A DNA stretch of 64,000 bases from Planctomycetota bacterium (GTDB lineage: Bacteria > Planctomycetota > UBA8108 > JACQVS01), in assembly GCA_016209605.1 (NCBI GenBank), contig JACQVS010000146.1:1-64000 (forward strand), read 5' to 3'. Position numbers and translations under genes: made by a program. Shown here one piece after another: positions 382 to 13,780 of the stretch (positions are counted from its first letter, which is position 1; every line of letters begins with the position of its first letter). The notes under the pieces are model-generated. The model was given only the letters and a program-made list of their open reading frames with translations, was not told the DNA's origin and searched no databases.

Positions 382-1044
382 ATGGCGGATCAGCTTGCAC
401 TTACTTCATTGTGTCCCCTCGGCTCGCAGCCCACCGCGGCGGTTTCGGTCCGATGGTCGTCCGTGGCGCTGGCTGCGGCCGAGGGTACGTTTTCTTCCTT
501 GTTCGTCGACAGCGCTGGTGTGCCCCGTCTCGCGCCGGTCGATGCTTCCCTCGGGGCTGGATCCTGCGCTCTGGCCCGGATCCGGGTTTTGCTTCCTGAG
601 AATCCGGCCTTGCCGCGCTCGCTGCTGGTCCTTCCTGTTAGCCAACAGCTGCTGATCAATGGTGTCCGCCCCGCCCTTCTGAAGGTGGCGGCGCCGGGCG
701 ATATTTTGACGCTTGCCGGCCAGCACTGGCTTCTGGTCCGCCATTTTCGTCCCGAGCCCGAGGCCGTGCCGGCCGCGCTCGCCGAGGAAAACTGCCCCGT
801 GTGCGGTATGGCGCTCCTGCTTACAAAAACCATACTGCGCTGCGTGAACGGCTGCGCCTATCATTGTGAGGATCCCTCTCAGCCGGTCAATCGCTCGGGC
901 TTGCTCAACTGTTTCTTCGAATCCCCCAGTTGTGTCATCTGCGACACGGAAAAGCGTCTCGCAGACCAGCTCATTCCGGATCCGTCAAGCCTGCACTGGG
1001 TCGACTGCTTTAAAAATTTCGTGAACGGAAAGGTGGCGTCATGA
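382..1044 (+). CDS. RING/treble-clef-like zinc protein of the Ub-like operon (candidate E3 or adaptor)
   Basis: The protein has 220 residues from the ATG at 382. Residues about 80-125 form a beta-rich stretch (LLING..., PGDILTLAG, WLLVRHF) that resembles an FHA-like or similar all-beta module. Then comes a cysteine cluster: C138-x2-C141, C154-x3-C158, H161/C162, C177, and C184-x2-C187. This ligand spacing is close to, but not the same as, a canonical RING. Small RING-like proteins are known beside bacterial and archaeal Ub-like genes. The stop overlaps the next start as ATGA, so it is translationally coupled to the E1-like gene. The start is uncertain: no Shine-Dalgarno precedes 382, and a TTG at 259 is in frame. 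An E3 role is inference; it could be a structural zinc adaptor. Confidence 0.6.
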   Translation: MADQLALTSLCPLGSQPTAAVSVRWSSVALAAAEGTFSSLFVDSAGVPRLAPVDASLGAGSCALARIRVLLPENPALPRSLLVLPVSQQLLINGVRPALLKVAAPGDILTLAGQHWLLVRHFRPEPEAVPAALAEENCPVCGMALLLTKTILRCVNGCAYHCEDPSQPVNRSGLLNCFFESPSCVICDTEKRLADQLIPDPSSLHWVDCFKNFVNGKVAS

Positions 1045-2234
1045 TCGAGGCAGCGGCGCAATTATCAAATTTCCATGCTAGTCCAATCCTGAATGGGTTG
1101 ATCCAGAGCGAGCCGATCCAGCAGGGGCCGATCCAGCCCGCGGTGTCGGGCTGGGCTTGGGCGGCTCTAAACGCGCTGACGGCGGTCATGGTGGGGGTCG
1201 GCGCGATTGGCCGCGTTCTCAGCCAGCACTTATTTTGGCTTGGCATCAGGAATTTCGTTCTGGTCGATTATAAAAAATACCGCGACGTTTCCGTCTCCAC
1301 CCAGTGCCATGCGGCCGAGATCGGCCGCTACAAGGCCGCCGTCGTCGCCCAGCAGCTCCGCCGGCAGGGGGCCCGCGTGGCGGGGCTGCCCATTCCCGCC
1401 GAAGAGCTCGATCCCGGCTGGCTGCGTCCGCCCTGCATCGTGGTGGCATCGGCCGACCGGCACTCCGCCGATCTGGCCGCGCACAAGCTGGCCCTGGCTC
1501 AAAATGTGAGGTTTTACAAAGTCAATCTGGAGCCCGCGTTGATACTTTCCAGCTTTCGCTTTTATGACTACACCATGGATCCCTTGGACCGGTGCCTGGA
1601 GTGCGGCTGGGATGACTCCACTTACCTCCGGCAGCGGTCCATCCACTCCTGCGAAGACGTGAGCGAGCGCTCCACCGGCAGCCCGCGGCCCCTCAGCGAG
1701 TTGACCGCCGGTTGGGCGGCGCTGTTGATCGTTTCGTCTCTCGTCGATGCCGCCGCGGCCGAGCGGTTGCGCGGCCGGGAGTTCCTCCTCTCTCCCCTCG
1801 GGCCGGTGCTCTCGGAATCCATCTTGCCGGAGAAGACTGATTGTCTGGGCTGCCACCGGCGCTCCGGCTCGCTGGTTTATCTTGTCCAGTCTCCCGGCGA
1901 GATCCGTTTTCACGATCTCGCTCTTCAGGCCGGCTTTCAACCCGGCGAGGAGCTGTGGGTGGGCAGCTCCGGCCTCTTCGCCAGACGGTGCCGCTGCTCG
2001 AAGTGCTGCAAGGAGGTAGCCGGGCTCTGGTGGGTCAAGTTCGTGCACCAGGCCGCCGGCTGGTGCTCGTGCGGCGGCCGCCTGCTCCCTGTGCCTTTTC
2101 ATGCCTCCAGCGGCCTCTCGCGGCAGGAACTCCACGGGGTGTGGTCATCCCCGCTTTCCTCGCTCCGCGTGGGCAGGCGGGCCGCCGTGTCTCTCAAGGG
2201 GTCGGGGCGGGAAGTCACTTTCATTTTGCGTTGA
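1041..2234 (+). CDS. E1-like ThiF/MoeB-family activating enzyme with cysteine-rich C-terminal extension (E1-A)
   Basis: The protein has 397 residues. A Rossmann nucleotide-binding loop G52-V-G54-A-I-G57 is followed by the ribose-binding Asp at D76 (VLVDYKKY), as expected for adenylating E1/ThiF enzymes that activate a ubiquitin-like C-terminus. Two CxxC pairs, C185/C188 and C268/C271, match the structural zinc site of the family. C204 (IHSCEDV) lies where the thioester cysteine would be expected. Beyond about residue 290 is an unusual extension with C317, C319, C322, C323, C342 and C344, probably a second zinc site. The gene overlaps the RING-like gene by 4 nt and precedes the E2. E1 identity is well supported; which of the two modifiers it activates is inference from proximity. 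Confidence 0.86.
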   Translation: MIEAAAQLSNFHASPILNGLIQSEPIQQGPIQPAVSGWAWAALNALTAVMVGVGAIGRVLSQHLFWLGIRNFVLVDYKKYRDVSVSTQCHAAEIGRYKAAVVAQQLRRQGARVAGLPIPAEELDPGWLRPPCIVVASADRHSADLAAHKLALAQNVRFYKVNLEPALILSSFRFYDYTMDPLDRCLECGWDDSTYLRQRSIHSCEDVSERSTGSPRPLSELTAGWAALLIVSSLVDAAAAERLRGREFLLSPLGPVLSESILPEKTDCLGCHRRSGSLVYLVQSPGEIRFHDLALQAGFQPGEELWVGSSGLFARRCRCSKCCKEVAGLWWVKFVHQAAGWCSCGGRLLPVPFHASSGLSRQELHGVWSSPLSSLRVGRRAAVSLKGSGREVTFILR

Positions 2235-2267
2235 CTGGAATAACTCGTGCTCTCATGGAGGAAGTTC

Positions 2268-2891
2268 ATGCAATTTCAGCAATCCTTGGTCGGTAGTAAG
2301 GTCTGGCAATTGAAGAAGTCATCCATCCGCCGGGACCTGGAGGCGCTGGCCGGCCGCAGCCCGGTCCTGGAGATCGTCGATTACCTTGACTCGGGCCCGG
2401 AAGTCCGCGCCGTGGCCTGCTTTCAAGTTCCGACGCTCGTCCAGCCCGTGAACGGCCAGGTCTGGGTCGCGGGTCCGGTCCTGGTCGGCCTCCGCTACCA
2501 CGAAAATTTTCTTTCCAGCCCTCCCATCGCCTGGGAAGTGGCGACCCTTCTGGGGCCGCCCGAGGCCATGCATCCGAATCTTTCGCAAGCCGGAGGGCTA
2601 TGTTTAGGAGCGCCGGTGGCCGGTTTTTCGATGGAGATCCTGCATCTCATCTTCGCGGCCATCAGCCTGCAGTCCTATAACTGCATCGAATGGCAGAGTC
2701 TTGACCTCGAGGCCTCCGCTTTCGTGCGCTCCCATGCCCATTTCTTTCCCATCGTCTCCACCGGGCTTTTCGAGGAACCGGACCTCGAGCCGCGCTATCG
2801 CCGGCATAAAGGGGACTTTTCGCCGTTCGCCTTTCCGCTCTCGCCCCGGTCAGCCCGGCGTGGGACGCCGGTAGGGGGGGTCCCCGCATGA
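2268..2891 (+). CDS. E2/UBC-fold conjugating enzyme with HPN motif
   Basis: The protein has 207 residues. The start at 2268 is fixed by GGAGG at 2257-2261, six bases upstream; an in-frame GTG at 2247 has no such site. The core reads M-H102-P103-N104-L-S-Q-A-G-G-L-C112-L-G. The HPN motif and the cysteine eight residues after its Asn match the catalytic arrangement of eukaryotic E2 enzymes. A hydrophobic helical segment follows (MEILHLIFAAISLQ), then a helix around residues 134-148, as in the UBC fold. Many bacterial E2-like proteins lack the HPN, so this one is notably eukaryote-like. The expected role is to take the modifier from E1-A on C112 and pass it to a substrate. The C-terminal 40 residues are basic and probably disordered. 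Confidence 0.87.
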   Translation: MQFQQSLVGSKVWQLKKSSIRRDLEALAGRSPVLEIVDYLDSGPEVRAVACFQVPTLVQPVNGQVWVAGPVLVGLRYHENFLSSPPIAWEVATLLGPPEAMHPNLSQAGGLCLGAPVAGFSMEILHLIFAAISLQSYNCIEWQSLDLEASAFVRSHAHFFPIVSTGLFEEPDLEPRYRRHKGDFSPFAFPLSPRSARRGTPVGGVPA

Positions 2892-3832
2892 GCGACTTCT
2901 TCATCTCCAAGCCCCAGGTTGAAGAGGCTCTCCTCAAGGTCGGCTGCGCGCGGCGGTCTCCGGGCGTGTTCGCGCTTGCCGCCAAACCTCCCCTCGCCCT
3001 CTACCCTCTGCGGCTGGCCGGCGGCTGGTGGCGCTGGCTCTCATCTCCCGTCAAGGCGGGCCATGTGGCCCCGGCAGCCGTCCTGGATGCGCCGGCGCCG
3101 TCCGGCCCGTTCAAGTGGCTTGCCGCCAAGGGGAAAAAGGGGTTGCGGCTGGCGGCCGATCTTCCGGAATGCTTTGAAGACGACGCGGCCGCCATGGGCA
3201 TCCTGGAGGACGGTCTTGCGGAAGCTCTGCCAGATGGATCGTCCGGCGGACAGGCGCCGGGCCATCTCGAGGTCTGGGCCGAAGATCTGGTGTCGGCCCT
3301 GCGCCGGTTCTCTCGGGGCGATGGTTGCTCTCCTTCCATTGCCAAGCCGCAGTCCCCAGGCGCCGATCTGGTCGATTGGCTCGCGCGGCGCGGCTGGCTC
3401 GGCTCGCTCGATGGCGATGAAATCCGCATCCAGATGACCGGCCCCCAGTACTGCAATACGGTTCACCTGCAGGCCTCCGCTCCGGCCGGCGGCCTCGCCC
3501 TGGATATGGAGCTCGCCGAGGTGAACGGATGGGGCGAAGAGTCTCTGGCGGCGGCGGCGCTCCTCGCCCAGGAGGCCGGCGAACGGCTGCGGCTGGTCCG
3601 TCTGGCTCTCGTTCAACAATCGGAGCGGCGGTACCTCTCGGCCCAGGTCCATCTCGGCCGCCTCCCCGCCCGGTCGCCATGGCTTCCATTGGCCCTCGAT
3701 GCCTTGCGCGCCGCCGCATGCGTGTTAGCGAAGGAAGCGCCGGCTCTGGCGGATCCAGATCTGGCTCGGTGGATTCTTTTCAGGACTTTTGGAACCAGCA
3801 GAAAGGAGGTTAACCATGGTCGCGACGCTTGA
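2888..3832 (+). CDS. Unknown 314-residue protein conserved by position in the Ub-like operon
   Basis: I do not recognise this family. The gene is clearly real: it overlaps the E2 by 4 nt (ATGA), keeps the operon's codon bias, and its last 17 nt overlap the next gene. Residues about 1-75 look globular with a Trp-rich patch (GGWWRW). Residues about 150-300 form an alpha/beta unit with TVHLQAS, LDMELAEV and YLSAQVHLG strands and a helix LAAAALLAQEAG. This weakly recalls the YbjN/type III chaperone-like fold, which is a low-confidence guess. There is no signal peptide or membrane segment, so it is probably cytosolic. From its position between the E2 and the modifier gene it may be a substrate adaptor, E3-like factor or E2 cofactor. 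Confidence 0.8.
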   Translation: MSDFFISKPQVEEALLKVGCARRSPGVFALAAKPPLALYPLRLAGGWWRWLSSPVKAGHVAPAAVLDAPAPSGPFKWLAAKGKKGLRLAADLPECFEDDAAAMGILEDGLAEALPDGSSGGQAPGHLEVWAEDLVSALRRFSRGDGCSPSIAKPQSPGADLVDWLARRGWLGSLDGDEIRIQMTGPQYCNTVHLQASAPAGGLALDMELAEVNGWGEESLAAAALLAQEAGERLRLVRLALVQQSERRYLSAQVHLGRLPARSPWLPLALDALRAAACVLAKEAPALADPDLARWILFRTFGTSRKEVNHGRDA

Positions 3833-4109
3833 GCGCGAGATCGCCGAACCGCCTTCGGAGTTCATCGATGTGCAGGTGAAGGACCTTTCCGGCCACCAGC
3901 GCATGCGCATCAACCGGCTGAAGGCGTCAACGCGCGTCCGCGAGCTCATCGGCATGTCGCAAGCTTCCATGAGCGTCCCGCCCGGGATTGACTGGTTGCT
4001 CAGGGACTCGAAGACCTCGAGACTCCTGCGCCACGATCAATCCGTGGGCGAGGCCGCGCATGAAGGCTTCGCCGATTTGACCCTGCAGCCGGATGCCCGG
4101 CTCGGGTGA
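3816..4109 (+). CDS. Ubiquitin-like modifier A with exposed C-terminal Gly
   Basis: The protein has 97 residues. AAAGGAGGT at 3802-3810, five bases before the ATG, is the strongest ribosome binding site of the operon and fixes the start. Residues about 16-97 follow the beta-grasp pattern: a strand FIDVQVKDL, a second strand RMRINRL, a helix with TRVRELIGM, and a late strand FADLTLQPD. The chain ends in PDARLG, a single Gly at the very C-terminus, so no processing would be needed before E1 activation. Lysines K22, K36 and K66 could allow chains. The length is typical of a short N-terminal tail plus one Ub fold. The gene starts inside the preceding one and is followed by a hairpin before the JAMM gene, consistent with high expression. 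The fold is inferred by pattern, not measured. Confidence 0.74.
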   Translation: MVATLEREIAEPPSEFIDVQVKDLSGHQRMRINRLKASTRVRELIGMSQASMSVPPGIDWLLRDSKTSRLLRHDQSVGEAAHEGFADLTLQPDARLG

Positions 4110-4121
4110 TTTTTTTTCTCT

Positions 4122-4163
4122 CCGGCTGGCTTCGGGGGAGCCTTGCTCTCCGAAGCCGGCCGG
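4122..4163 (+). terminator. GC-rich hairpin between modifier A and the JAMM gene
   Basis: The arms at 4122-4135 and 4150-4163 pair over 14 bp with a single G:T pair and a 14-nt loop. The + strand has only a short T tract after it (ATTTTG), so it would be a weak terminator at best. More likely it attenuates transcription or protects the 3' end of the short modifier message, giving more modifier than downstream enzymes. It sits in the only gap of over 90 bp inside the operon. Confidence 0.5.
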
Positions 4164-4202
4164 GATTTTGATGCTCGGTTTTGTTAGTGAGGCCGGTCGA
4201 TC

Positions 4203-5294
4203 ATGTTTCACGATCCTTATGTATACGCGGTCTCGGTTGGGCGCCCTGGGGCGGCTGGGCCGCCGGCCCGACGGCCGGTAGACAAGAACTATCTCTTGCC
4301 GATCATCGATGACGGGCTGTGGTTCGCTCAGCGCCGCGGCGTCATTGGCATGGACAGGTCGCGCGCCCGCTGGGAGCTGCTGCCGGTGTTCGTGAACGGG
4401 AGCGGCGGCCAGGTCCGGAGCTTGCGCATGCGCGTTTCAGAAAGCGGCCCGGCCCTTTCGCGGGATTACTCGCTGGGCGTTTTTCAGGAACCGGCGCAGG
4501 AGCTGCTGCGGGAGCTCATGAAAGATGGCAAGTTGGGCCTCGAGGATGAAATCGTGACCCAGGTGCTTGCCTTCAGGCCCCAGCCGGCGGCTCGATCGCC
4601 GATCGCGGCTGCCGGGCCGCGCGCCGCGGCGTCGCCAGCCGTGACGCCGGTGGTGGAGGAGCGGCCGCTGCCGGTCTTGCCCGGCCGCCTGGAGGAATGG
4701 CAAGGGCGGGCAGCGGCGGTCAATCCCCAGTCTGGACAGGAGGGGGACACCCCCGTCTTCATCCTCCGCTCGGTTTTCGAGCGGGCGCGGGCCTCCTGCC
4801 GCCGGCCCGGCGAGCTGGAGGGCGGCGCGTTCCTCACCGGCCGCCTCTACCGGCAGGCGGAGCCGGTGCCGGAAATTTTTCTGGCGGTGGAAGGATCGTT
4901 CGAGGCCAGCCACGCGCTTCAGGAACGGTTCAGCTTGACGTTCACCGCCGGGACGTATGGCGCCTTCGAGGAGCAGCTCGAGCGCCGGCGCCGGCGCCTC
5001 AATCGCCCAGAGGAAATTCTCGCCGGCGTGGCCCACGGCCACGGCTTCTTGCCGGGTCTGGGCGAGGACCGACAGCCGCTTTGCCCCGCCTGTCCCAAAA
5101 GGGCGGAATGCGGCTTGCACTCGGCCTTCTATAGCAGCGATGACCTGGCTTATCATCGCGCTCTTTTCAGCCGGCTGCCGTTCGCCCTGGGTCTGGTGTT
5201 CGGCCTCGATCCACGCGAGCACGATGTGGTGCGGGCCTACGGTTACCGCGATGGCTCCATTCAGGAAAGGAGCTTTTGGCTGGTCTCGGATTGA
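4203..5294 (+). CDS. JAMM/MPN+ isopeptidase with zinc-knuckle-like insertion (JAB-A)
   Basis: The protein has 363 residues. The C-terminal half carries a JAMM metalloprotease signature: Glu in E206-G-G, H278-G-H280, and S311-x2-D314 in FYSSDD, with downstream family-like text (LAYHRALF, ALGLVFGLD). Between H280 and S311 there are 30 residues instead of the usual seven. The insert contains C294-x2-C297, C303 and H306, a likely zinc knuckle. Residues about 30-130 form a separate alpha/beta domain of unknown type, joined by a Pro/Ala-rich linker (about 125-165). The predicted role is removal of modifier A from substrates or chains, coupled to the ATPase encoded next. The start ATG at 4203 has only a weak ribosome site, so expression may depend on read-through past the hairpin. 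Confidence 0.86.
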   Translation: MFHDPYVYAVSVGRPGAAGPPARRPVDKNYLLPIIDDGLWFAQRRGVIGMDRSRARWELLPVFVNGSGGQVRSLRMRVSESGPALSRDYSLGVFQEPAQELLRELMKDGKLGLEDEIVTQVLAFRPQPAARSPIAAAGPRAAASPAVTPVVEERPLPVLPGRLEEWQGRAAAVNPQSGQEGDTPVFILRSVFERARASCRRPGELEGGAFLTGRLYRQAEPVPEIFLAVEGSFEASHALQERFSLTFTAGTYGAFEEQLERRRRRLNRPEEILAGVAHGHGFLPGLGEDRQPLCPACPKRAECGLHSAFYSSDDLAYHRALFSRLPFALGLVFGLDPREHDVVRAYGYRDGSIQERSFWLVSD

Positions 5295-5323
5295 AACAAA
5301 GAGAAAACCAAAGGAGCATGCTC

Positions 5324-7072
5324 ATGAAAATAAACCTGCCGCCGGGGGCTGACGACCCGGTCAAGAACGCCTTGTCCATCCTGGAGGACTCCTCCATGCC
5401 CCCGAAGGCACGGGCGGAGTTTCTTCTCCACAGCGCCCAGGCGCTCGGCTACGACTTGATGAATCCGCTTGCCAGGCTGCTCGACCGCTGCGACAAGGGG
5501 CGCGAGCTGGAGAAGCTCAACGCCCAGCTCGCCGCCAAGCTGGCGCAGCTCGAGGAGGAGAAGCGCCAGCCGCTCGTGCCGGAGATCTTTTTGCGCTCAG
5601 TCGATAGGGGCGATGGCGCCTGCTGGGGCCTGATCGAGTCCCAAGCCGGCCCGCTGCTCTGCCCCATGGACGGCGGCCTCACCGGCCTGAGACGGGGGGT
5701 TTACGTGCTTCTCGAGCGCTCTTCCGGGAAGATCGTCGACCGCGATGGGGTGATCGTCCCCACCGGCGAGATCGCCAAGGTCGAGGAAGTCCTCGATGGG
5801 GATCCCGTGCAGGTGATCGTCAGCCTGCACGACCGCCGTTTCAAGGCCCAGGTGTCGGAGGCGGTGCAAAGCTCCGGCGAGCTGCGTCCCGGCGCCGAGG
5901 TGCTGTTCGATGCGTCCCGGCGCTTTGTCCACGACATCCTCCACCCGCGGCTCGAGGGGGAAGATCTCCTCACGCCGGCGTCGGAGCTGTCGGGATTTTC
6001 CTTGCAAAACCTGGGCGCCCCCCATCCCGTCATCTTCGAGATCGTGAACAGCGTCAAGCGGCGCCTCCTCCATCCGGAGTGGGAAAGCCTCCTGCAGGCG
6101 CGCCAGCGCCGCAGCTACCTCTTCCACGGCATCACCGGCTCGGGAAAATCTTCCTCGATCAAAGTGATCGCCAATCTCATCGCCGATTTCATCGAGGAGC
6201 TGACCGGCGTCCGGGAGCCCAGGATGGTGGTGGCCTCGTGCGCCGATTTTTATTCTCCGTTCTTCGGCGAGTCCGAGCTCAAAGTGGCGCGCTGGTTCAA
6301 GAAGCTGGGCGCCATTGCCCGGAAGGCGGTCCTCGCCAAGGATGGGCGGCGCATCGTCCTGCCTCTTCTCGTGGTCTTCGAGGAGCTCGAAGGATTGATT
6401 CGCGGCCGCGGCGAGTTCGGCGGCTCCAGCCATCTCTTCGACCGCATCTTGTCGCTCATCCTGCACAAGATGGATTCGGTGACCAACGAGCTCGAGGCGC
6501 CGATCATCTTCATCAGCACTACCAACATGATGATGCTCTTGGATGCAGCCGGCCTCCGTCGCTTTGGCCAGCGTCAGATTATGTTCTCCGCTCTTGATGC
6601 CCTGTCGGCTTATCAGGTGCTCGAGAAGAAACTGCCGGCGGACATGCCTTACAGCACCCCTCCGGGGATCCCGTCTTCTTCGGCGCGCCGGCAGTTGCTC
6701 GAGTCGCTGATCCACTACCTCTTCGGCCGCCATGATGAACAGGCGATCGCCGAGGTCACGCTGCGTGATACATCAAAAAAAATCGTCTCTAGAAAGGATG
6801 TCATCACGGGCAGTTTTCTGGAAACCGCCTTGTGCGTAGCGATCGATGAGGTCCTCGACCGCTCCACTGCAGAGGGGGAGCTTCGGGGGATCGATGCGGA
6901 TACCATCACCCGGGCTCTCGCCCGCCAGTTCGATGCCCTGGCGGCGAACTTGCATCCCCACAATTTGCGGGATCTCGTCCCCCATCTCTTCCCCGAAGAG
7001 GCCGTTCAAATTGCCAGCGTCCGGCCGGTGAAGCGCTACGGCCGCCGGCCGGTGGATTACTACTTCCAGTAA
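5324..7072 (+). CDS. Mpa/ARC-like proteasomal AAA+ ATPase
   Basis: The protein has 582 residues. AAGGAG at 5311-5316 fits the ATG at 5324 (seven-base spacer) better than the one at 5318. Residues about 55-82 are a charged coiled coil (KGRELEKLNAQLAAKLAQL). Residues about 85-210 are beta-rich and fit OB-type domains. The AAA+ module has Walker A G269-I-T-G-S-G-K275-S, a pore-loop-like FYSPFFGESE, Walker B LLVVF-E353-E354 (Glu replaces the usual Asp), sensor Asn N401 and Arg-finger candidates R412/R413. Coiled coil, OB, then AAA+ is the order of Mpa/ARC, the unfoldase of actinobacterial proteasomes. The chain ends VDYYFQ; YFQ resembles the HbYX tail that docks ATPases on 20S cores. No core subunit is in the window. 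The gene sits between the two Ub-like modules. Confidence 0.88.
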   Translation: MKINLPPGADDPVKNALSILEDSSMPPKARAEFLLHSAQALGYDLMNPLARLLDRCDKGRELEKLNAQLAAKLAQLEEEKRQPLVPEIFLRSVDRGDGACWGLIESQAGPLLCPMDGGLTGLRRGVYVLLERSSGKIVDRDGVIVPTGEIAKVEEVLDGDPVQVIVSLHDRRFKAQVSEAVQSSGELRPGAEVLFDASRRFVHDILHPRLEGEDLLTPASELSGFSLQNLGAPHPVIFEIVNSVKRRLLHPEWESLLQARQRRSYLFHGITGSGKSSSIKVIANLIADFIEELTGVREPRMVVASCADFYSPFFGESELKVARWFKKLGAIARKAVLAKDGRRIVLPLLVVFEELEGLIRGRGEFGGSSHLFDRILSLILHKMDSVTNELEAPIIFISTTNMMMLLDAAGLRRFGQRQIMFSALDALSAYQVLEKKLPADMPYSTPPGIPSSSARRQLLESLIHYLFGRHDEQAIAEVTLRDTSKKIVSRKDVITGSFLETALCVAIDEVLDRSTAEGELRGIDADTITRALARQFDALAANLHPHNLRDLVPHLFPEEAVQIASVRPVKRYGRRPVDYYFQ

Positions 7073-7096
7073 TTTTACCAGTCAAGGAGGATTGCC

Positions 7097-7444
7097 ATGA
7101 TGTTCAAGGAACCCCAACAGGTTGCTGCAACCGCCCCCGTTTCCCGGCTCACCGCCCCGCCCCAGAGAGAGCCGGCCGGCGCCGCCGAGGGCTGCGCCGC
7201 CGCCGGGGCCAACGGCGCGTCGGTCCTGGTCCAGCACGGGATTCACTTCAAGTCCTATCCGGTGGCCGGCATGACCGTCGCCCAGGTCCGCGGGACGCTC
7301 TCCGCGCAGCTCCACATCGACCCCGCGTCGGTGGCGGTGATTGGCGGCGTGATCGTCGACGATGAAAACGCCCGCGTCGTGACCGGCAAGGACCAGCTGT
7401 TGACCTTCACCAAGAGAAGCTCGGTGCGCGGCTGCGGCCGCTGA
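7097..7444 (+). CDS. Ubiquitin-like modifier B (Prok_Ub/ThiS-like beta-grasp)
   Basis: The protein has 115 residues. AAGGAGG at 7084-7090 sets the start. Residues 1-40 are a Pro/Ala-rich tail. Residues about 42-108 look like a compact beta-grasp: strand ASVLVQHGIHF, turn and helix TVAQVRGTLSAQL, strand SVAVIGGVIV, and strand QLLTFTKRS. The C-terminus is SSVRGCGR: Gly residues occur at positions 112 and 114, but one Arg follows, so activation may need trimming unless the Arg is tolerated. This contrasts with modifier A, which ends in a bare Gly. Its place directly before E2-like, JAMM and ThiF genes matches the Ub-like protein C of PRTRC cassettes, as I remember them. Homology is by pattern only. 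Confidence 0.66.
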   Translation: MMFKEPQQVAATAPVSRLTAPPQREPAGAAEGCAAAGANGASVLVQHGIHFKSYPVAGMTVAQVRGTLSAQLHIDPASVAVIGGVIVDDENARVVTGKDQLLTFTKRSSVRGCGR

Positions 7445-7459
7445 ACGGGGAGTGTAAAC

Positions 7460-8317
7460 ATGACTCTAAAAAATCGTCAGCCCCGGTTGGCCGTGGAGCA
7501 GGTGGTGATCCGAGAGGACAGCGTCGAGTTGCATCTTCCCGGCTCTGCCGTGCAGACCCTGCCGGCCAGCGCCCTGATCGAGGCCGTCCAGGCGTACAGC
7601 ATCCGCGGCCTCGGCCGCGATGCGCTCCCCGACAACATCAAGTGGAAGGTCGAGTGCGGCAAGATGACGATCTACATCGTCGAGCTCAAGCCGGAAGTGC
7701 GCTCGGTCCTGTGGATCAGCTCGAACAGCGTGGCCCCCTACGGGCCGGAAGCCAAGTACGAGAGCTACCGGCTGGCCTTCCCCTTCGTGGTCTTGAAGGT
7801 CCCGTTCGTCAATGGGCAGTTGATCGAGGCCGCCGAGCTTTTTTACCGCAACGCCCCGTTGAGCTCTCTCGACGATGAGCTTTTCTGGTCGAACCTCCTG
7901 AACGTCAGCCCCCGTTCCCACGGGTGCACCGCCTGGGTATGCACGCAGTACCTGGCTGATGAAATGAACCAGCTCGCAGCCAAGCTGCGCCGGCCGCTCA
8001 CGGAGGTGGAGGCGCTGCACTGCTTCATCCTCCATCTTTTCGGGGGCGGCCTCAACCGGAGCAGCGAGGCGCATGAGGGCATGAGCTGCTTCGGCAAGGC
8101 GGCCATGGACAAGGTCGATCCGCGAGTCACCGACGTGACCCGTTGGCAAGCCGCCTCGGAGAAGCCGGAGTTCATCCTCGGCGTGGCGTGGAAGCCGGCC
8201 GGCCACACCATCCGCAGCTTGATCCTCGACCAGCTCGACCGCTCCGGGGCGCGCCGGGATCTCGGCGATGCGGCCGAGCTGGTCAGCTTGCTCCTGGCGC
8301 CTCGAAAGGCGGGCTGA
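7460..8317 (+). CDS. E2-like protein (Prok-E2_D / PRTRC protein B type)
   Basis: The protein has 285 residues, preceded by GGGGAG at a seven-base spacing. The central part (about 60-165) has alternating strands (MTIYIVELK, VLWISSNS, AFPFVVLKVPFVNG) and then NVSPRSHG-C156-TAWV-C161. This resembles the divergent E2-fold proteins that accompany PRTRC ThiF and JAMM proteins, in which a cysteine follows a buried strand. There is no HPN motif, so it differs from the E2 of module A. The C-terminal region (about 170-285) is alpha/beta and unassigned. Order and spacing (modifier B, this gene, JAMM-B with a 2-nt gap, ThiF-B) argue for a role with those proteins. Whether it is a catalytic E2 or only an E2-fold adaptor cannot be told from sequence. 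Confidence 0.6.
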   Translation: MTLKNRQPRLAVEQVVIREDSVELHLPGSAVQTLPASALIEAVQAYSIRGLGRDALPDNIKWKVECGKMTIYIVELKPEVRSVLWISSNSVAPYGPEAKYESYRLAFPFVVLKVPFVNGQLIEAAELFYRNAPLSSLDDELFWSNLLNVSPRSHGCTAWVCTQYLADEMNQLAAKLRRPLTEVEALHCFILHLFGGGLNRSSEAHEGMSCFGKAAMDKVDPRVTDVTRWQAASEKPEFILGVAWKPAGHTIRSLILDQLDRSGARRDLGDAAELVSLLLAPRKAG

Positions 8318-8319
8318 TC

Positions 8320-9051
8320 ATGGAGGCGGATATGGTGGCTGGAGCCATCGAAGTCATCGAAGTCCTCGCCAAGCGCCCGGGCCAGGAGCTGCCGCCGCTG
8401 GCCGAAGGCCAGCTTCGCTACGTCATGGCCGAAAACGGCCTCTTCCTCGAGCGGCGTACGGCCATGTTCACCACCTGCTGCCGCGTCGAGCGCTGCGCCG
8501 CCGGCTTGTCGCAGCATGAAGAGGCTTGCGAGTTGCTCTGCGGGCCCATCCCGAGAACGCTGGTCCGCGCCATGGTGGCCTTCTTCCGGGCCGCCTACGA
8601 GCACCACGGCGGGGAGGCCGTCCTCCTGCTTCTTTTCCACCCTTTGGAGCGGCGCTTCCGCTGGCTGTGCCCTAGCCAGACGGTGCGGGTTTACGAGGAC
8701 TGGAAGGGCCGGTGGCAAGCCGGCATGGACATCGAGTATGACGTGCCCCTGGAGCTGCCATCCGGCTTCGTCCTCTTCGGCGACGCTCACAGCCACGCCG
8801 ACCTTCCCGCCTACGCGAGCTACCTCGACAAGCAAGAGGAGCATTTCAAGGATGGGCTCCACATCGTCCTGGGCCGCCTGCAGGCGGCGCACCTGGCATG
8901 GCATATCGACTTCGTCATCGATGGAAAGCGCTTCCCCCTCGATCCTGAGCGGGTCTTCGCCGCTGGCGACTGGCCCCCCTTCGGCTCCGTGCCGCCGGCC
9001 TGGATCGAGCAAATCAACATCAAGAGCTACACGAGCAAGAAATACTGGTGA
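8320..9051 (+). CDS. JAMM/MPN+ metalloprotease (JAB-B, PRTRC protein A-like)
   Basis: The protein has 243 residues. The zinc site is textbook: H157-S-H159, seven residues, S167-x2-D170 (HSHADLPAYASYLD), with E99 in HHGGEAVLLL as the likely catalytic Glu. The N-terminal 75 residues contain five Cys (TTCCRVERC, EACELLC), possibly a further metal site. The start lies 2 nt after the upstream stop, with AAAGGCGG as ribosome site, and its stop overlaps the ThiF-B start (TGATG). The expected function is cleavage of the modifier from conjugates or trimming of a modifier precursor. That would fit modifier B, which has an Arg after its last Gly. Unlike JAB-A it has no long insert between His and Ser. 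Confidence 0.9.
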   Translation: MEADMVAGAIEVIEVLAKRPGQELPPLAEGQLRYVMAENGLFLERRTAMFTTCCRVERCAAGLSQHEEACELLCGPIPRTLVRAMVAFFRAAYEHHGGEAVLLLLFHPLERRFRWLCPSQTVRVYEDWKGRWQAGMDIEYDVPLELPSGFVLFGDAHSHADLPAYASYLDKQEEHFKDGLHIVLGRLQAAHLAWHIDFVIDGKRFPLDPERVFAAGDWPPFGSVPPAWIEQINIKSYTSKKYW

Positions 9052-9839
9052 TGGATATGGACAGCGAGATTTCTTCCCCGGAAACCGCCGCGAGCGATAA
9101 AATCCCGCTCCTCCCGCTGAAAACGGAGCTGCTCACCCGCGGCCGCGTCATCGTGGCTGGCCTGGGCGGCATCGGCTCGATCCTGGCGCCCAACCTGACT
9201 CTTTTTTTAGCGTCGCTGCGCCGCCTGCCGATCCGCATCCAGCTCATCGATGGGGACAAGTATGAAGAGCGCAATCGAGAACGCATGGAGGTGCCGGCTT
9301 TCGAAAACAAGGCGGTGGCGCTGTGCCGTCAGCTCACCGAGAAATTCGGGCGTCCGAAGCTTTACATCCGGCCGGTGGCTCAGTATGTCAACGTCGAGAA
9401 CGCCAGCGATCTCATCCAAGAGCACGATGTGGTGTTCGCGTGCTTTGACCGGCACTCCAGCCGCAAGGTGCTGAGCGACCGCTGCGCGGAGCTGGAGAAC
9501 ATCATCCTGATTTCCGGCGGCAACGACGGCGTCGAGGAGGGCTGGCGCGGCACTTACGGCAACATCCAGATCTTCCGCCGACATGTTGGCGCCGAGCTGA
9601 ATCCGCCCCTCACCCGGTTCCACCCCGAGATCCAGAAGCCCGCCGACCAGGTGCCGGTGGAGTCCTGCGCTGACCTCGCGGGCAGCTCCGCCCCGCAAAT
9701 CCTCTTCGCCAACCTCGCCGCCGCCTGCGCCATGTGCTGCGCCTTTTACCGCATCCTGAGCGATGAGGGGAAGGAGAGGATCTTCGACGAAATCTGCTTC
9801 GACATCTACGAGGGAAGGTTCGTGCCGCAGGTTTTTTAA
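9051..9839 (+). CDS. ThiF-family E1-like enzyme (E1-B, PRTRC ThiF-like)
   Basis: The protein has 262 residues, with its start overlapping the JAMM-B stop. The nucleotide loop is G37-L-G39-G40-I-G42; D67 (LIDGDK) and N75-R76 (ERNRERM) with K87 complete the adenylation site of ThiF/E1 enzymes. C206 (VESCADLAG) is the candidate thioester cysteine, followed by SSAPQIL and a helix, as in the family. There is no CxxC zinc pair, unlike E1-A, and no C-terminal extension, so it is a minimal E1. It ends the operon; transcription then meets converging genes from the - strand about 40 bp later. By position it should serve modifier B. Confidence 0.9.
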   Translation: MDMDSEISSPETAASDKIPLLPLKTELLTRGRVIVAGLGGIGSILAPNLTLFLASLRRLPIRIQLIDGDKYEERNRERMEVPAFENKAVALCRQLTEKFGRPKLYIRPVAQYVNVENASDLIQEHDVVFACFDRHSSRKVLSDRCAELENIILISGGNDGVEEGWRGTYGNIQIFRRHVGAELNPPLTRFHPEIQKPADQVPVESCADLAGSSAPQILFANLAAACAMCCAFYRILSDEGKERIFDEICFDIYEGRFVPQVF

Positions 9840-9882
9840 GAAAATAATGGTTAAAGGCCGAAGGAAAAAAACCTATGGTATA

Positions 9883-11405
9883 CTAAATTTCGATAAACTG
9901 CCGGATCGGCCACTTGCAGGTCTCCGGCCTGGCATCGACCGGGCAAGCGCTGAAGCCGTTGGAGCTCTCGAAAGAGCAACCCATGTCCCACCATCCCGGA
10001 TCCCGCGTGTAGTCCCCGTTCGGCTCGGGGTAGGGATAAGGCGGGCTGGGGCCGCCCAGATAGAGGTGCTGGAGGAGGTAGATGGGATCGGTGAGATCGA
10101 AGCGGCCGGAGTCATCGGCATCGTCGGCATCGCCGCAGGTCACCGGCCTCCCCATGAAGAGCTGCTCCAGCATGGCGATGGCATCGGCGAGCTCCACCGC
10201 CCCATCGCGATTGGCGTCGCCGCGGACGAAGGACCAATCGAAACCGGTCTGGACCTCGAGCCGGGTCGGGTCACCAGCCCGATGCCGAGCAAGAGCGGGT
10301 TCTCGAAATCGTAGCCCCCCTCCGGGAGCCCCCAGTTGATCGACGTGGGGTTGGCCCTGTAGCCGATCACCAGGTCCTGAAGCCCGTCCAGGTCAAAATC
10401 GTGGAGCAGCACCGCCGTGGGATTGTCGCCGAGCGGATTGGGGGGTATGGGAAGCTCGTAATCGAACTTCTCCTCGAAGCTGCCGTCCCCCCGCCCGAGG
10501 AAGACGGCCAGGCGCCGGGGCCAGCTCCCGGCGATGAGGTCGAGATGCCCATCGCGGTCAAAATCGCCGACCGCCACGCCATCCGGGTGGGAGACCGCCC
10601 CATCAACCACCTGGTACTTGACCACCGGCAAAACCAAGGCTTTATCGAAACGGCCGTGGCCCAGGCATCTGTAGACGTGGATCGTCAAATAAAGCTCCCC
10701 ATCTTCAGGGTTGCGGAAATTGCCGACGGTGACGATGTCCTTGAAACCGTCGCCGTTCAGGTCGGCCACCCTGGCATTTCCAGCATGGAAGAAATCCGGC
10801 ACATCGACCTTTTGAAACTTCCTCCCCCCCTCGCCAAAGGCGATGAGGTTTTTTCCGGGCCCGCCGCCAAAGAGATCCTCCTCGCCATCCCCATCCAGGT
10901 CGACCACGGTGAGGCCGATATCGTATTCCGCGCCCTGGACAAACGGCACGACCCCCCCTTGCGGGGTGAGCGTGCCATCGGCCTTCCCCCAGAAGAGCAG
11001 CACCTCGGGGCTGCGCCCCCCGAGGACAAAGAGATCCCGGAAGCCGTCCTTGTTGATGTCGCCGCTGGCGAAGTGGGCCCCTCTGGAAAAGGCCACGGTC
11101 ATGATGCCGAACTTCCCATCGCCGTGGCCGAGGTAAATGCCTTGATCCTTGATCAGATCGAGCTTCCCGTCCCCGTTCACATCCCCGAAAACGGCGTTCG
11201 GCCAATAGCTGTCCGAAAAGCTCAAGTACTTGGAATCATCAAACCACCTCGTGCCGATGAGCCGGTTTCCATGGTTGAAGAAAATGTCCCTATAGCCCGC
11301 CGTCACCAGGAGGTGGGGCAAGGGCTTCCGGCCTTGAGCTGCCAGGGGCAAGGAGAGGAGGCCGAGGAACCCTAAAGCGGCCCCGAGCAGCCCGCGGCGC
11401 GCTCT
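9883..11405 (-). pseudogene. Secreted FG-GAP/VCBS-repeat protein with dockerin-like tail, frameshifted and lacking a start
   Basis: From about 11405 to 10270 the frame encodes FG-GAP repeats (DVNGDGKLDLI, DLNGDGFKDIV, DFDRDGHLDLI, DFDLDGLQDLV), a seven-blade propeller typical of secreted planctomycete proteins. A signal-peptide-like stretch (RRGLLGAALGFLGLLSLPL) precedes it, but no ATG, GTG or TTG lies between the upstream in-frame stop and that stretch. Near 10263-10270, in GGGTCGGG, the frame shifts by one base; the other frame continues smoothly as EVQTGFDWSF and two dockerin-like repeats (ELADAIAMLEQLF, DLTDPIYLLQHLYLGG) to a stop at 9883. Either it is a decayed gene or the consensus has an indel. 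Its 3' end faces the Ub-like operon. Confidence 0.72.
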
Positions 11406-12301
11406 TGGGCGCTGGAGGTGTTCTGGAGATCATTCACCAGGAAATTGACCTGTTCGGAGAAGAACAGCGTGGACTCGAACTTTATGTCTGGTAAATGAAA
11501 TGTCGTGCTCCTCAAGACGGTGAAGTGGGCGTTGCCGTGATCGAAGGAGTACCACTGCTCGGTGGTCTCAATATCCCCTATGGAGCTCTCCCGCGCCACG
11601 TAGGCGGCATCGTAGTCGCCAACGTCTTGGATCGTCGGCGCTGCTGCAGGAATGAAGGTCTCCAGGTCCTCATCCCCGGGGGCGACATAGAAGACCGAGC
11701 GGCTCAAGGCCTCGGAGTAGACGTTATAGAAAAGATGGTCCGCCGATTCCTGGCCCCGGGAGGGCTCGACCACGAGGTTTGTACCGGGAGGATCGTTAGG
11801 CGGGACAGAGTAATTGTTGTTCCGGATCACCCGGTCCCCGGCCGAGATGAAGAAATCCACGTCCAGGCCGTTCAAGAGGCCGGCCAGGGCCGCCTGGTTC
11901 GCGGTGGCGAGGCCGCTGTTCCCGAAGGCCACGAAGCGGAAGCTCTCCGCCGCCGGGCTGGGAACCTTGAAGGAGGGGGTGCAGTCGAGGTAAGGGAGAT
12001 CGTTGACAAAAACATCATAGCTGATCAGGGAGCCTGGAGTCAGGGGCGGATTGGCGACCCCGCCGTTTTCCCCCGGCACCAGGATGCGATACATGGTGCT
12101 GTCCAGGAACGCTCCCTCATCCTCGCAGGAGGGCTCGCAGAAGAGCACTTCATCGCTCGTCCACTGGATGGGCCCCCCGTCGGAATACACCACCTTAATG
12201 TCCTGGTCCAGGCCCATTTTAGCCCGGATGACCACCTCCACGTCGCTTGAGGTGTCATCCACTGAGGCCCGGGAAAGGAAGGGGGCGCGCTTCCGGACCA
12301 C
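11372..12301 (-). pseudogene. Metallophosphoesterase domain, continuation of the upstream gene after an in-frame TAG, truncated at its C-terminus
   Basis: The frame is identical to that of the gene at 12311-13780, and translation would continue directly if the TAG at 12311-12313 were a sense codon. It starts with a Fn3/purple-acid-phosphatase-like beta domain, then a calcineurin-type fold: FRFVAFGNSG (the usual first-motif Asp of GD is Asn), FFISAGD, WYSFDHGNAHFTVL. It breaks off at EQVNFLVNDLQ, exactly where the family would continue to the metal-binding His motifs, and a stop follows within 12 codons. It has no signal peptide of its own. A GTG at 12301 could start it, but without a visible ribosome site. 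The piece is unlikely to be active. Confidence 0.68.
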
Positions 12302-12310
12302 GATCCTGGG

Positions 12311-13780
12311 CTAAAAGATGCAGTCGATGTCATTTCTGTCAATGTTTACGACCTGCACCGCCAGCACATTGGGGCCGTTATGCAGCTCCGGGCCCCTCAA
12401 GGCCGAGATCCGGCCATCGAGCTCTTCATTGGGATTATTCGGGGGGTTGCGGAGATCGGCGTAGCCGGAGAACCTCTGGGTGACCGGGTTGGGGCTCCTT
12501 GCCAGCGAATCGTGGTCAAGAACTTGCTGGTCCCCGAAAGTGTCGGGAGGAAACGGCATGCGGATGTTCAGCCGCCGGATTTCCCGGCTCTTTTCCTCGT
12601 TACCTTCCCGGGTGCTGAGATAGGCGATGAACCCATCATCCACCCCCAGATCGGCCTCGAGGGCGCTGAAGATCTCGCCGTTAAAGCCTGGGAGAAGCGC
12701 GAGGTCGAAGGTGATGCGGACATAGAAGCTGGTGTAGCCCTGCAGTGGATCCGCCGATCTCATGTCGTCCAGCAGGTGCCCGATCGGGCTCGGAGGATTG
12801 GAGGCATCGTAGCCGATCGGGGTCGCATCGCTCACCAGCTCCCACTCCGAGTCATCGTAATTCAAGGTCGTCCAGGCCAGCGCGGCCCCGGGAGGCTCCG
12901 AGGCCCCCCGCCAGAGGCGGATCTCGGTCACCGCCGGGAAATTGGCCACCGGCCCCGCATCGAGGACCAGGAGCGTGTCGTCGATGGCGCAACCGTTTAG
13001 CGCTTGCCTCCCGGCCGGCCCCTCGGCCGCCACCGGCTCGGATCCCGCGGGAGCCGGCGGCGGCCCCCCTGAAAAATCGCAGCCGCCGGGCGACGGGGTG
13101 GTGTAGGGACTGACGTAAAGGGCGAACTGGAAGTTCCTGGCGCAGGGAACATGGCTCTGGCCGCCCTGGGTGATCACCGTCCGGATTTTGGGATCGCCGA
13201 TATTGTGCGTGAACTTGACATAGGCTGAATAATACCCCGAGGCCATGGGCATGGTGACCGTGTAGCAGGCCTTCGAGGTGATGAAGCCCGACACCGGCCC
13301 GAGGGTGGTCTGCTGGGTCGTGTCGATGGTCACGCCTTGCGTGTAGCCGTTATAGCCGGAGCGGATGGAGGTGTTTTCAAAATCGGGCGGACCGCCGTTC
13401 TGGACGGCCGGGGTGTCCGTGCCGCTGGTGGTGACCGAGTTGAGGGTGATGCTGCCTCCGTAGTAGGGGTGAAAGCGGGTCGGGCTGTGCTCGAGGCCGA
13501 AGGACCAGCCTTGGGTTTGTCCGGAGGTGACGGTCATCGCGGTCCTCACCATGACGTTGATTTGCTGGTAGGGGCGGCCTTGAAGCCAGACGTAGTTCGA
13601 GCTCCAGTTCAACCCGCCGTTGACGCTTCCTTGAACTTCAAATTTAAAGGTCTCGCCGCCCAGGCAGGAAGGGGGAGGGTCTTCGGAGCGGAGCGGCGCT
13701 GGAAGGAGAAGGGTCAAGAGAAAGGTCCCCAGGCATGCGGTACGAGAGGTCAGGATCGAAACAATCGTCGAGCGCTTCAT
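12311..13780 (-). CDS. Secreted beta-sandwich protein, N-terminal part of a broken metallophosphoesterase gene
   Basis: The protein has 489 residues, with a signal peptide at 1-32 (CLGTFLLTLLLPAPLRSE) and GGGGAG upstream of the ATG. Residues about 45-230 describe a cohesin-like secreted domain (GWSFGLEHSPTRF, YYSAYVKFTHNIGDP). Residues about 265-485 are a galactose-binding-like sandwich (LNYDDSEW, SFYVRITFDL, VDDGFIAYLS, GPNVLAVQVVN) that in related proteins precedes a phosphoesterase domain. The stop after NDIDCIF is a TAG; the same frame carries on into that phosphoesterase. The protein is therefore probably the N-terminal half of a longer ancestor, though the half could fold and be secreted. 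Confidence 0.72.
   Translation of the reverse strand: MKRSTIVSILTSRTACLGTFLLTLLLPAPLRSEDPPPSCLGGETFKFEVQGSVNGGLNWSSNYVWLQGRPYQQINVMVRTAMTVTSGQTQGWSFGLEHSPTRFHPYYGGSITLNSVTTSGTDTPAVQNGGPPDFENTSIRSGYNGYTQGVTIDTTQQTTLGPVSGFITSKACYTVTMPMASGYYSAYVKFTHNIGDPKIRTVITQGGQSHVPCARNFQFALYVSPYTTPSPGGCDFSGGPPPAPAGSEPVAAEGPAGRQALNGCAIDDTLLVLDAGPVANFPAVTEIRLWRGASEPPGAALAWTTLNYDDSEWELVSDATPIGYDASNPPSPIGHLLDDMRSADPLQGYTSFYVRITFDLALLPGFNGEIFSALEADLGVDDGFIAYLSTREGNEEKSREIRRLNIRMPFPPDTFGDQQVLDHDSLARSPNPVTQRFSGYADLRNPPNNPNEELDGRISALRGPELHNGPNVLAVQVVNIDRNDIDCIF

Follow-up and report, generated by a model that had tools for sequence, protein, structure and literature searches.

An E2-like protein with a conserved HPN motif in a planctomycete operon that also encodes a proteasomal-type ATPase and a second candidate tagging module

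Introduction

Does a bacterial reading frame that displays the catalytic residues of a ubiquitin-conjugating enzyme actually encode an E2, and what might such an enzyme serve in its host? The question is posed by a gene near the beginning of a 64,000-nucleotide stretch of DNA (here termed ‘the window’, with which a 78-kb contig from a Planctomycetota genome begins), for which an initial annotation had proposed a bacterial E2 with the eukaryotic HPN-to-Cys geometry and the probable ability to form isopeptide bonds to lysine. The gene forms part of an operon (positions 382-9839, all genes on the + strand, with intergenic gaps of at most 93 bases) in which RING, E1, E2, a protein termed X, Ubl1, JAMM1 and an Mpa/ARC-like AAA ATPase are encoded in that order, followed by a second tagging system (Table 1).

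Table 1. Features of the operon and the evidence for each assignment
Feature	Position	Strand	Evidence
RING-like zinc protein (possible E3), N-terminal FHA-like region	382..1044	+	Cys/His zinc pattern common to 3 relatives
E1 (ThiF/MoeB-type), candidate thioester Cys204	1041..2234	+	Pfam ThiF 1.1e-6
E2-like protein, H102-P103-N104 and C112	2268-2891	+	207 aa ORF; family conservation; fold of relative
Protein X, fold unassigned	2888..3832	+	homologues at same position in L006, L007, L009
Ubl1, candidate modifier, ends ...P-D-A-R-L-G	3816..4109	+	homologous to Ubls of L007, L009, L067, L055, L058, L062
JAMM peptidase 1	4203..5294	+	5 homologues keep the Glu of E-x-G-G, H278-x-H280 and S-x2-D
Mpa/ARC-like proteasomal AAA ATPase (OB + AAA)	5318..7072	+	closest to an Mpa-type proteasome-associated ATPase among solved structures
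Ubl2, second small modifier candidate	7097..7444	+	homologues at same place in G058, G145
Second E2-like candidate, W-[IV]-C conserved, position of PRTRC protein B	7460..8317	+	homologues only in G058, G145
JAMM peptidase 2 (H-S-H-x7-S-x2-D)	8320..9051	+	NCBIfam PRTRC_A 1.6e-11, below cut-off
Second E1 (ThiF)	9048..9839	+	NCBIfam ThiF/MoeB models; PRTRC_ThiF 9.9e-5, below cut-off

Identity of the E2-like protein

The start codon at 2268 is preceded by a GGAGG sequence, and both the translated reading frame and the family alignment agree with the residue numbering first given for the motif (HPN at 102-104, the cysteine at 112 and an Asn-to-Cys spacing of eight). When the sequence of the protein was shuffled, HPN-x6-9-C arose in 112 of 200,000 trials; a chance origin of the motif is ruled out by its conservation in the family, and not by the motif alone.

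That family could be reached only through genome searches and profiles, while single-sequence searches with the window protein returned no match in Pfam, NCBIfam, PDB or the genome contigs database. Across 392 genomes of the phylum, four distant homologues were recovered, 22-30% identical to the window protein, in whose alignment the H, P, N and C are invariant, and a profile of the resulting five members found matches in 36 of the 392 genomes. Of the 30 planctomycete family members that were examined, 29 have HPN and 29 have the cysteine (the exceptions being LAN in genome G058 and a serine in G037), and the Asn-to-Cys spacing is seven in 21 members, eight in six and ten in one. Thus, the motif is a trait of the family and the spacing is not; the reading of a spacing of eight as a eukaryotic signature is therefore rejected, the value being incidental and less common than seven. 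The G058 protein with LAN (L067, contig C214, 4178-5158) retains its cysteine and belongs to the same operon type as the window, and the G037 homologue with serine (L066, contig C187, 2873-3424; HPNIRPPWISLQ) retains HPN and is found in a genome that also carries an AAA-Dop-PafA locus.

The context of the cysteine (G-G-L-C-L-G) had likewise been described as that of eukaryotic UBC enzymes. This description holds for the HPN and for the C-L pair, but the W-S-P-A loop that follows in the eukaryotic proteins is absent, and the window protein reads A115-P-V-A-G, against W-[SA]-A, W-[VA]-P or WSPA in other planctomycete E2s. A literal W-S-P-A after HPN...C occurs in one planctomycete E2 subgroup (L061, which is G018:C236, and L041-L043). 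By its sequence, that subgroup is more eukaryote-like than the window protein, which ranks among the less eukaryote-like members.

Formal classification and fold were also considered. PF00179 (UQ_con) gave no match up to E=10 for the window protein or its four relatives, and none in the window genome as a whole, in a search in which no control genome matched; the protein is accordingly not filed as PF00179. Against the PDB, the five-member profile scored weakly (E 0.35 to 2), with E2s at the top and making up 15 of its 16 matches. A profile of eleven members reached 3.9e-10 against eukaryotic E2s, the alignment staying in register through the HPN, the cysteine and the next helices. The AlphaFold model of the window protein, built from four sequences, reached a pLDDT of 43, and only noise came back when it was compared with known folds. 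The model of a relative (29% identical) reached a pLDDT of 78.7 and a pTM of 0.79; Foldseek ranked E2s at the top, the leading two with a probability of 1.00, and with VIA 50 of 50 among the matches listed are E2-superfamily chains (Z 8.3-9.3 over 118-132 residues, rmsd 3.3-4.3), the aligned range 1-155 of the model covering its HPN at 96-98 and its C105. The E2 fold was obtained with a confident model of a relative, the model of the window protein itself being of low confidence. Taken together, the conserved HPN and cysteine, the in-register profile match and the fold of the relative argue that the window protein is a real E2-superfamily member, as had been claimed.

The first conjugation module

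The E2 shares its operon with genes for an E1, a Ubl, a JAMM peptidase and a RING-like protein. Three genomes preserve the gene order with E2s that share only about 44-49% of their residues. Against Pfam Prok-RING_1, relatives of the RING-like protein score 3.7e-6 and 1.1e-5, narrowly missing the curated cut-off; its FHA-like region was judged by eye alone. Cys204 of the E1 is invariant in five aligned E1s and, in our own reading of the alignment, would correspond to the crossover-loop position of MoeB-type E1s; zinc-ribbon cysteines are present in the C-terminal region of the same protein. A relative of JAMM1 matches Prok-JAB at 6.5e-5.

Ubl1 has no Pfam match. Its C-terminus follows a conserved P-x3-[AL]-G pattern, beyond which relatives carry either no tail or a variable one (in L007, ...DAG-ARGPQD), and the window protein stops at the glycine; the variable tails of some Ubls suggest processing at that residue. 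Protein X corresponds to no Pfam family, and no X was found in the G058 piece.

The ATPase and the second module

The best solved match of the AAA protein (2.1e-16) is a proteasome-associated ATPase of the Mpa type, and the protein scores below cut-off against the NCBIfam model pup_AAA (TIGR03689, 5e-25, equivalog cut-off) and against the OB_C model (2e-4). Its Walker A motif lies at residue 271 and its Walker B motif reads EE instead of DE. From these features, the protein appears nearest to Mpa, yet divergent in its Walker B and Arg-finger regions. The proteasome core family PF00227, which includes HslV, is absent from the window genome (G000, 80% complete) and from G016, G050, G013 and G058, and is present in G145, the genomes checked being 80-94% complete. 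PADLOC returned weak, partial E1-E2 matches for both E1s and weak IetA matches for the ATPase, and no defence system is therefore claimed.

Behind the ATPase stands one of two alternative sets of genes: the PRTRC-like Ubl2, E2′, JAMM2 and E1′ (‘class A’) or Dop, Pup and PafA (‘class B’). One or the other set sits behind the ATPase without a contig break in the window, G145, G016, G050 and G013. Class A comprises the window, G058 and G145, each with Ubl2, the W-[IV]-C protein, JAMM2 and the second ThiF; the two operon halves of G058 fall on separate contigs, and in G145 the ATPase and the second module share a contig, with about 1 kb of unassigned sequence between them, and the E2 is on another. 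No Pup ligase was found in G058 or G145. Class B comprises G016, G050 and G013, which belong to different families and encode Dop, a Pup that ends in RQEGGQ or RQAGGE, and PafA. In the class A ATPases (window 5318-7072, L067 and L078), Walker B reads EE instead of DE, and the Arg-finger region is shorter than in those of class B.

Ubl2 has no convincing family match in Pfam or NCBIfam. The W-[IV]-C protein has no match in either collection, and a role as an E2 is accordingly proposed from its neighbourhood. Pup, PafA and Dop are absent from the window operon and present in L006, L007 and L009. Elsewhere in the window genome, a lone divergent gene of the Pup-ligase family (L054, G000:C186:26000-45500, 8478-10364) has an open frame of 628 residues; a scan of its surroundings found no Pup-like gene end.

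It might be argued that the window holds a standard planctomycete RING/E1/E2/JAMM system to which the ATPase and the second tagging genes are mere neighbours and not mechanistic partners, in keeping with the fact that most of the planctomycete HPN-E2 operons examined have no homologue of this ATPase, or of Pup genes, nearby. That account is nonetheless unlikely, given that the ATPase directly follows JAMM1 in five genomes and that the PRTRC-like set, as traced by its W-[IV]-C protein, is confined to three of 392 genomes, all within the six that possess this E2 subfamily (hypergeometric 2e-6).

A proposed mechanism

The reading preferred here, which is probably correct, is that the window protein serves a bacterial ubiquitin-like cascade as its E2 and that two tagging routes feed one unfoldase of the proteasome-ATPase type. 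In such a scheme, JAMM1 would trim the Ubl tail in those relatives that have one (the window Ubl1 already ending in glycine), after which the E1 would adenylate Ubl1, load it on Cys204 and pass it on to C112 of the E2. N104 would stabilise the transition state while Ubl1 is transferred, with the assistance of the RING-like protein, to an amine of the target, probably a lysine. JAMM1 might also take the tag off its targets. The Mpa/ARC-type ring would take in tagged proteins and unfold or extract them, possibly with JAMM1 removing the tag at the same time, on the model of Rpn11/Rpt. The same ring would receive another tag from the second system, which is the PRTRC-like Ubl2 set in the window and Pup in its relatives.

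This explanation is argued for by the retention of HPN and of the cysteine, each in 29 of 30 family members, the E2 fold of the relative, the 3.9e-10 profile match, the conserved E1 cysteine, JAMM ligands and Ubl glycine, the conserved gene order, the closeness of the ATPase to Mpa and the position of a second set after it in five genomes. Counted against this explanation are the missing PF00179 match and W-S-P-A loop, the pLDDT of 43, the LAN of G058, the divergence of the ATPase and the lack of a proteasome core in the 80%-complete window genome. A broader proposal, advanced more tentatively, is that two chemically independent tagging systems may share one proteasome-ATPase-type unfoldase, that the second of them may be interchangeable in evolution (PRTRC-like in one lineage, pupylation in another), and that no 20S proteasome may be needed for the machine to operate.

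Isopeptide formation on lysine by the window E2 is plausible. The HPN asparagine might, on the other hand, be no sign of isopeptide chemistry at all, with Ubl1 transferred to serine or threonine, to cysteine or to a small molecule. The window E2 has a glutamine aligned with a conserved acidic or serine position, which we take to be the conserved E2 Asp/Ser (CES/D) site, and the G058 protein lacks the H and P of its HPN; in addition, some eukaryotic E2s modify serine (PMC11649903). The asparagine is nevertheless retained by nearly every family member, and at the acidic site the class B relatives have aspartate, so that an acceptor other than lysine is distinctly unlikely. That the window E2 is degenerating and serves mainly as a scaffold is quite improbable, since for all its 22-30% identity to relatives, its lost W-S-P-A, the EE of the neighbouring ATPase and the serine of G037, the HPN, C112, E1 Cys204, JAMM ligands and terminal Ubl glycine are all intact in the window.

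Relation to known systems

Burroughs, Iyer and Aravind are said to have described in 2011 the oxyanion residues of such E2s, together with RING E3s, YukD-like Ubls and a UFD-like E1 C-terminal domain. Zuin et al. 2014 (PMC4197634) credit bacterial ubiquitylation operons with E2, RING and JAB genes in Actinobacteria, Planctomycetes and Acidobacteria to that work (doi 10.1039/c1mb05061c), which is also cited by Kaminskaya et al. 2024 (PMC11354881), who state that the active centre of putative bacterial E2s contains His and Asn. The novelty first attached to a bacterial HPN E2 was therefore overstated. The window operon resembles the 2011 operons, as these are reported to be built, in its RING-like gene, E1, E2 with an oxyanion Asn, JAMM and small Ubl with a C-terminal glycine, and in its phylum; it differs from them, as citing papers describe them, by the addition of the Mpa/ARC-type ATPase, protein X and the second tagging system.

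Comparable sets occur elsewhere. The compact Caldiarchaeum subterraneum operon (PMC5654768) combines a modifier, an E1, an HPN-loop E2, a small RING protein and a JAMM, but its E2 is close enough to the eukaryotic enzymes to match yeast Ubc1, whereas that of the window has no Pfam match. Pupylation and UBact (Mpa-Dop-Pup-PafA; PMC2588565) share the Mpa/ARC-like ATPase and, in the operons of three relatives, Dop, Pup (ending in GGQ or GGE) and PafA; unlike them, the window operon has no Pup gene. Iyer et al. 2008 (PMC2588565) report a planctomycete Pup locus without proteasome genes, and a search of that paper found no mention of JAB, E1-like or E2-like proteins. The second module is reminiscent of PRTRC and of operon type 6d of Iyer et al. 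2006 (PMC1779556), which we infer to be equivalent, in its small Ubl, Cys protein, JAB with an N-terminal domain and ThiF; it differs from PRTRC in that it scores below the PRTRC cut-offs and is embedded behind an ATPase and an HPN-E2 cascade. The BilABCD antiphage systems also unite a Ubl, an E1, an E2 and a JAB, but BilB is described (PMC11354881) by a CEHH motif that runs from the cysteine onward, whereas the window E2 has its HPN before the cysteine. CEHH is absent from the window E2 (C112-L-G-A-P-V-A-G-F), with no Glu at +6 and no His at +8. A partial literature search found no paper that joins a bacterial ubiquitylation operon with a Pup locus, which is weak evidence.

The window E2 is thus real, and ordinary for a known kind; because HPN E2s in bacterial RING/E1/E2/JAMM operons are already known, the catalytic motif alone changes little. 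What is less expected, and worth following, is that the operon appears to serve an unfolding machine and carries a second tagging system that is swapped in related bacteria. An operon in which a Ubl cascade and a JAMM are combined with a proteasome-type ATPase and followed by either Pup or a second Ubl would parallel Rpn11/Rpt in bacteria, and would make it possible to test directly whether a single unfoldase can accept Pup as well as ubiquitin-like tags. Convergent to the operon, the - strand of the window at 10140-13780 carries genes whose products resemble FG-GAP repeat, dockerin-type and phosphoesterase-like proteins, as judged from open reading frames alone.
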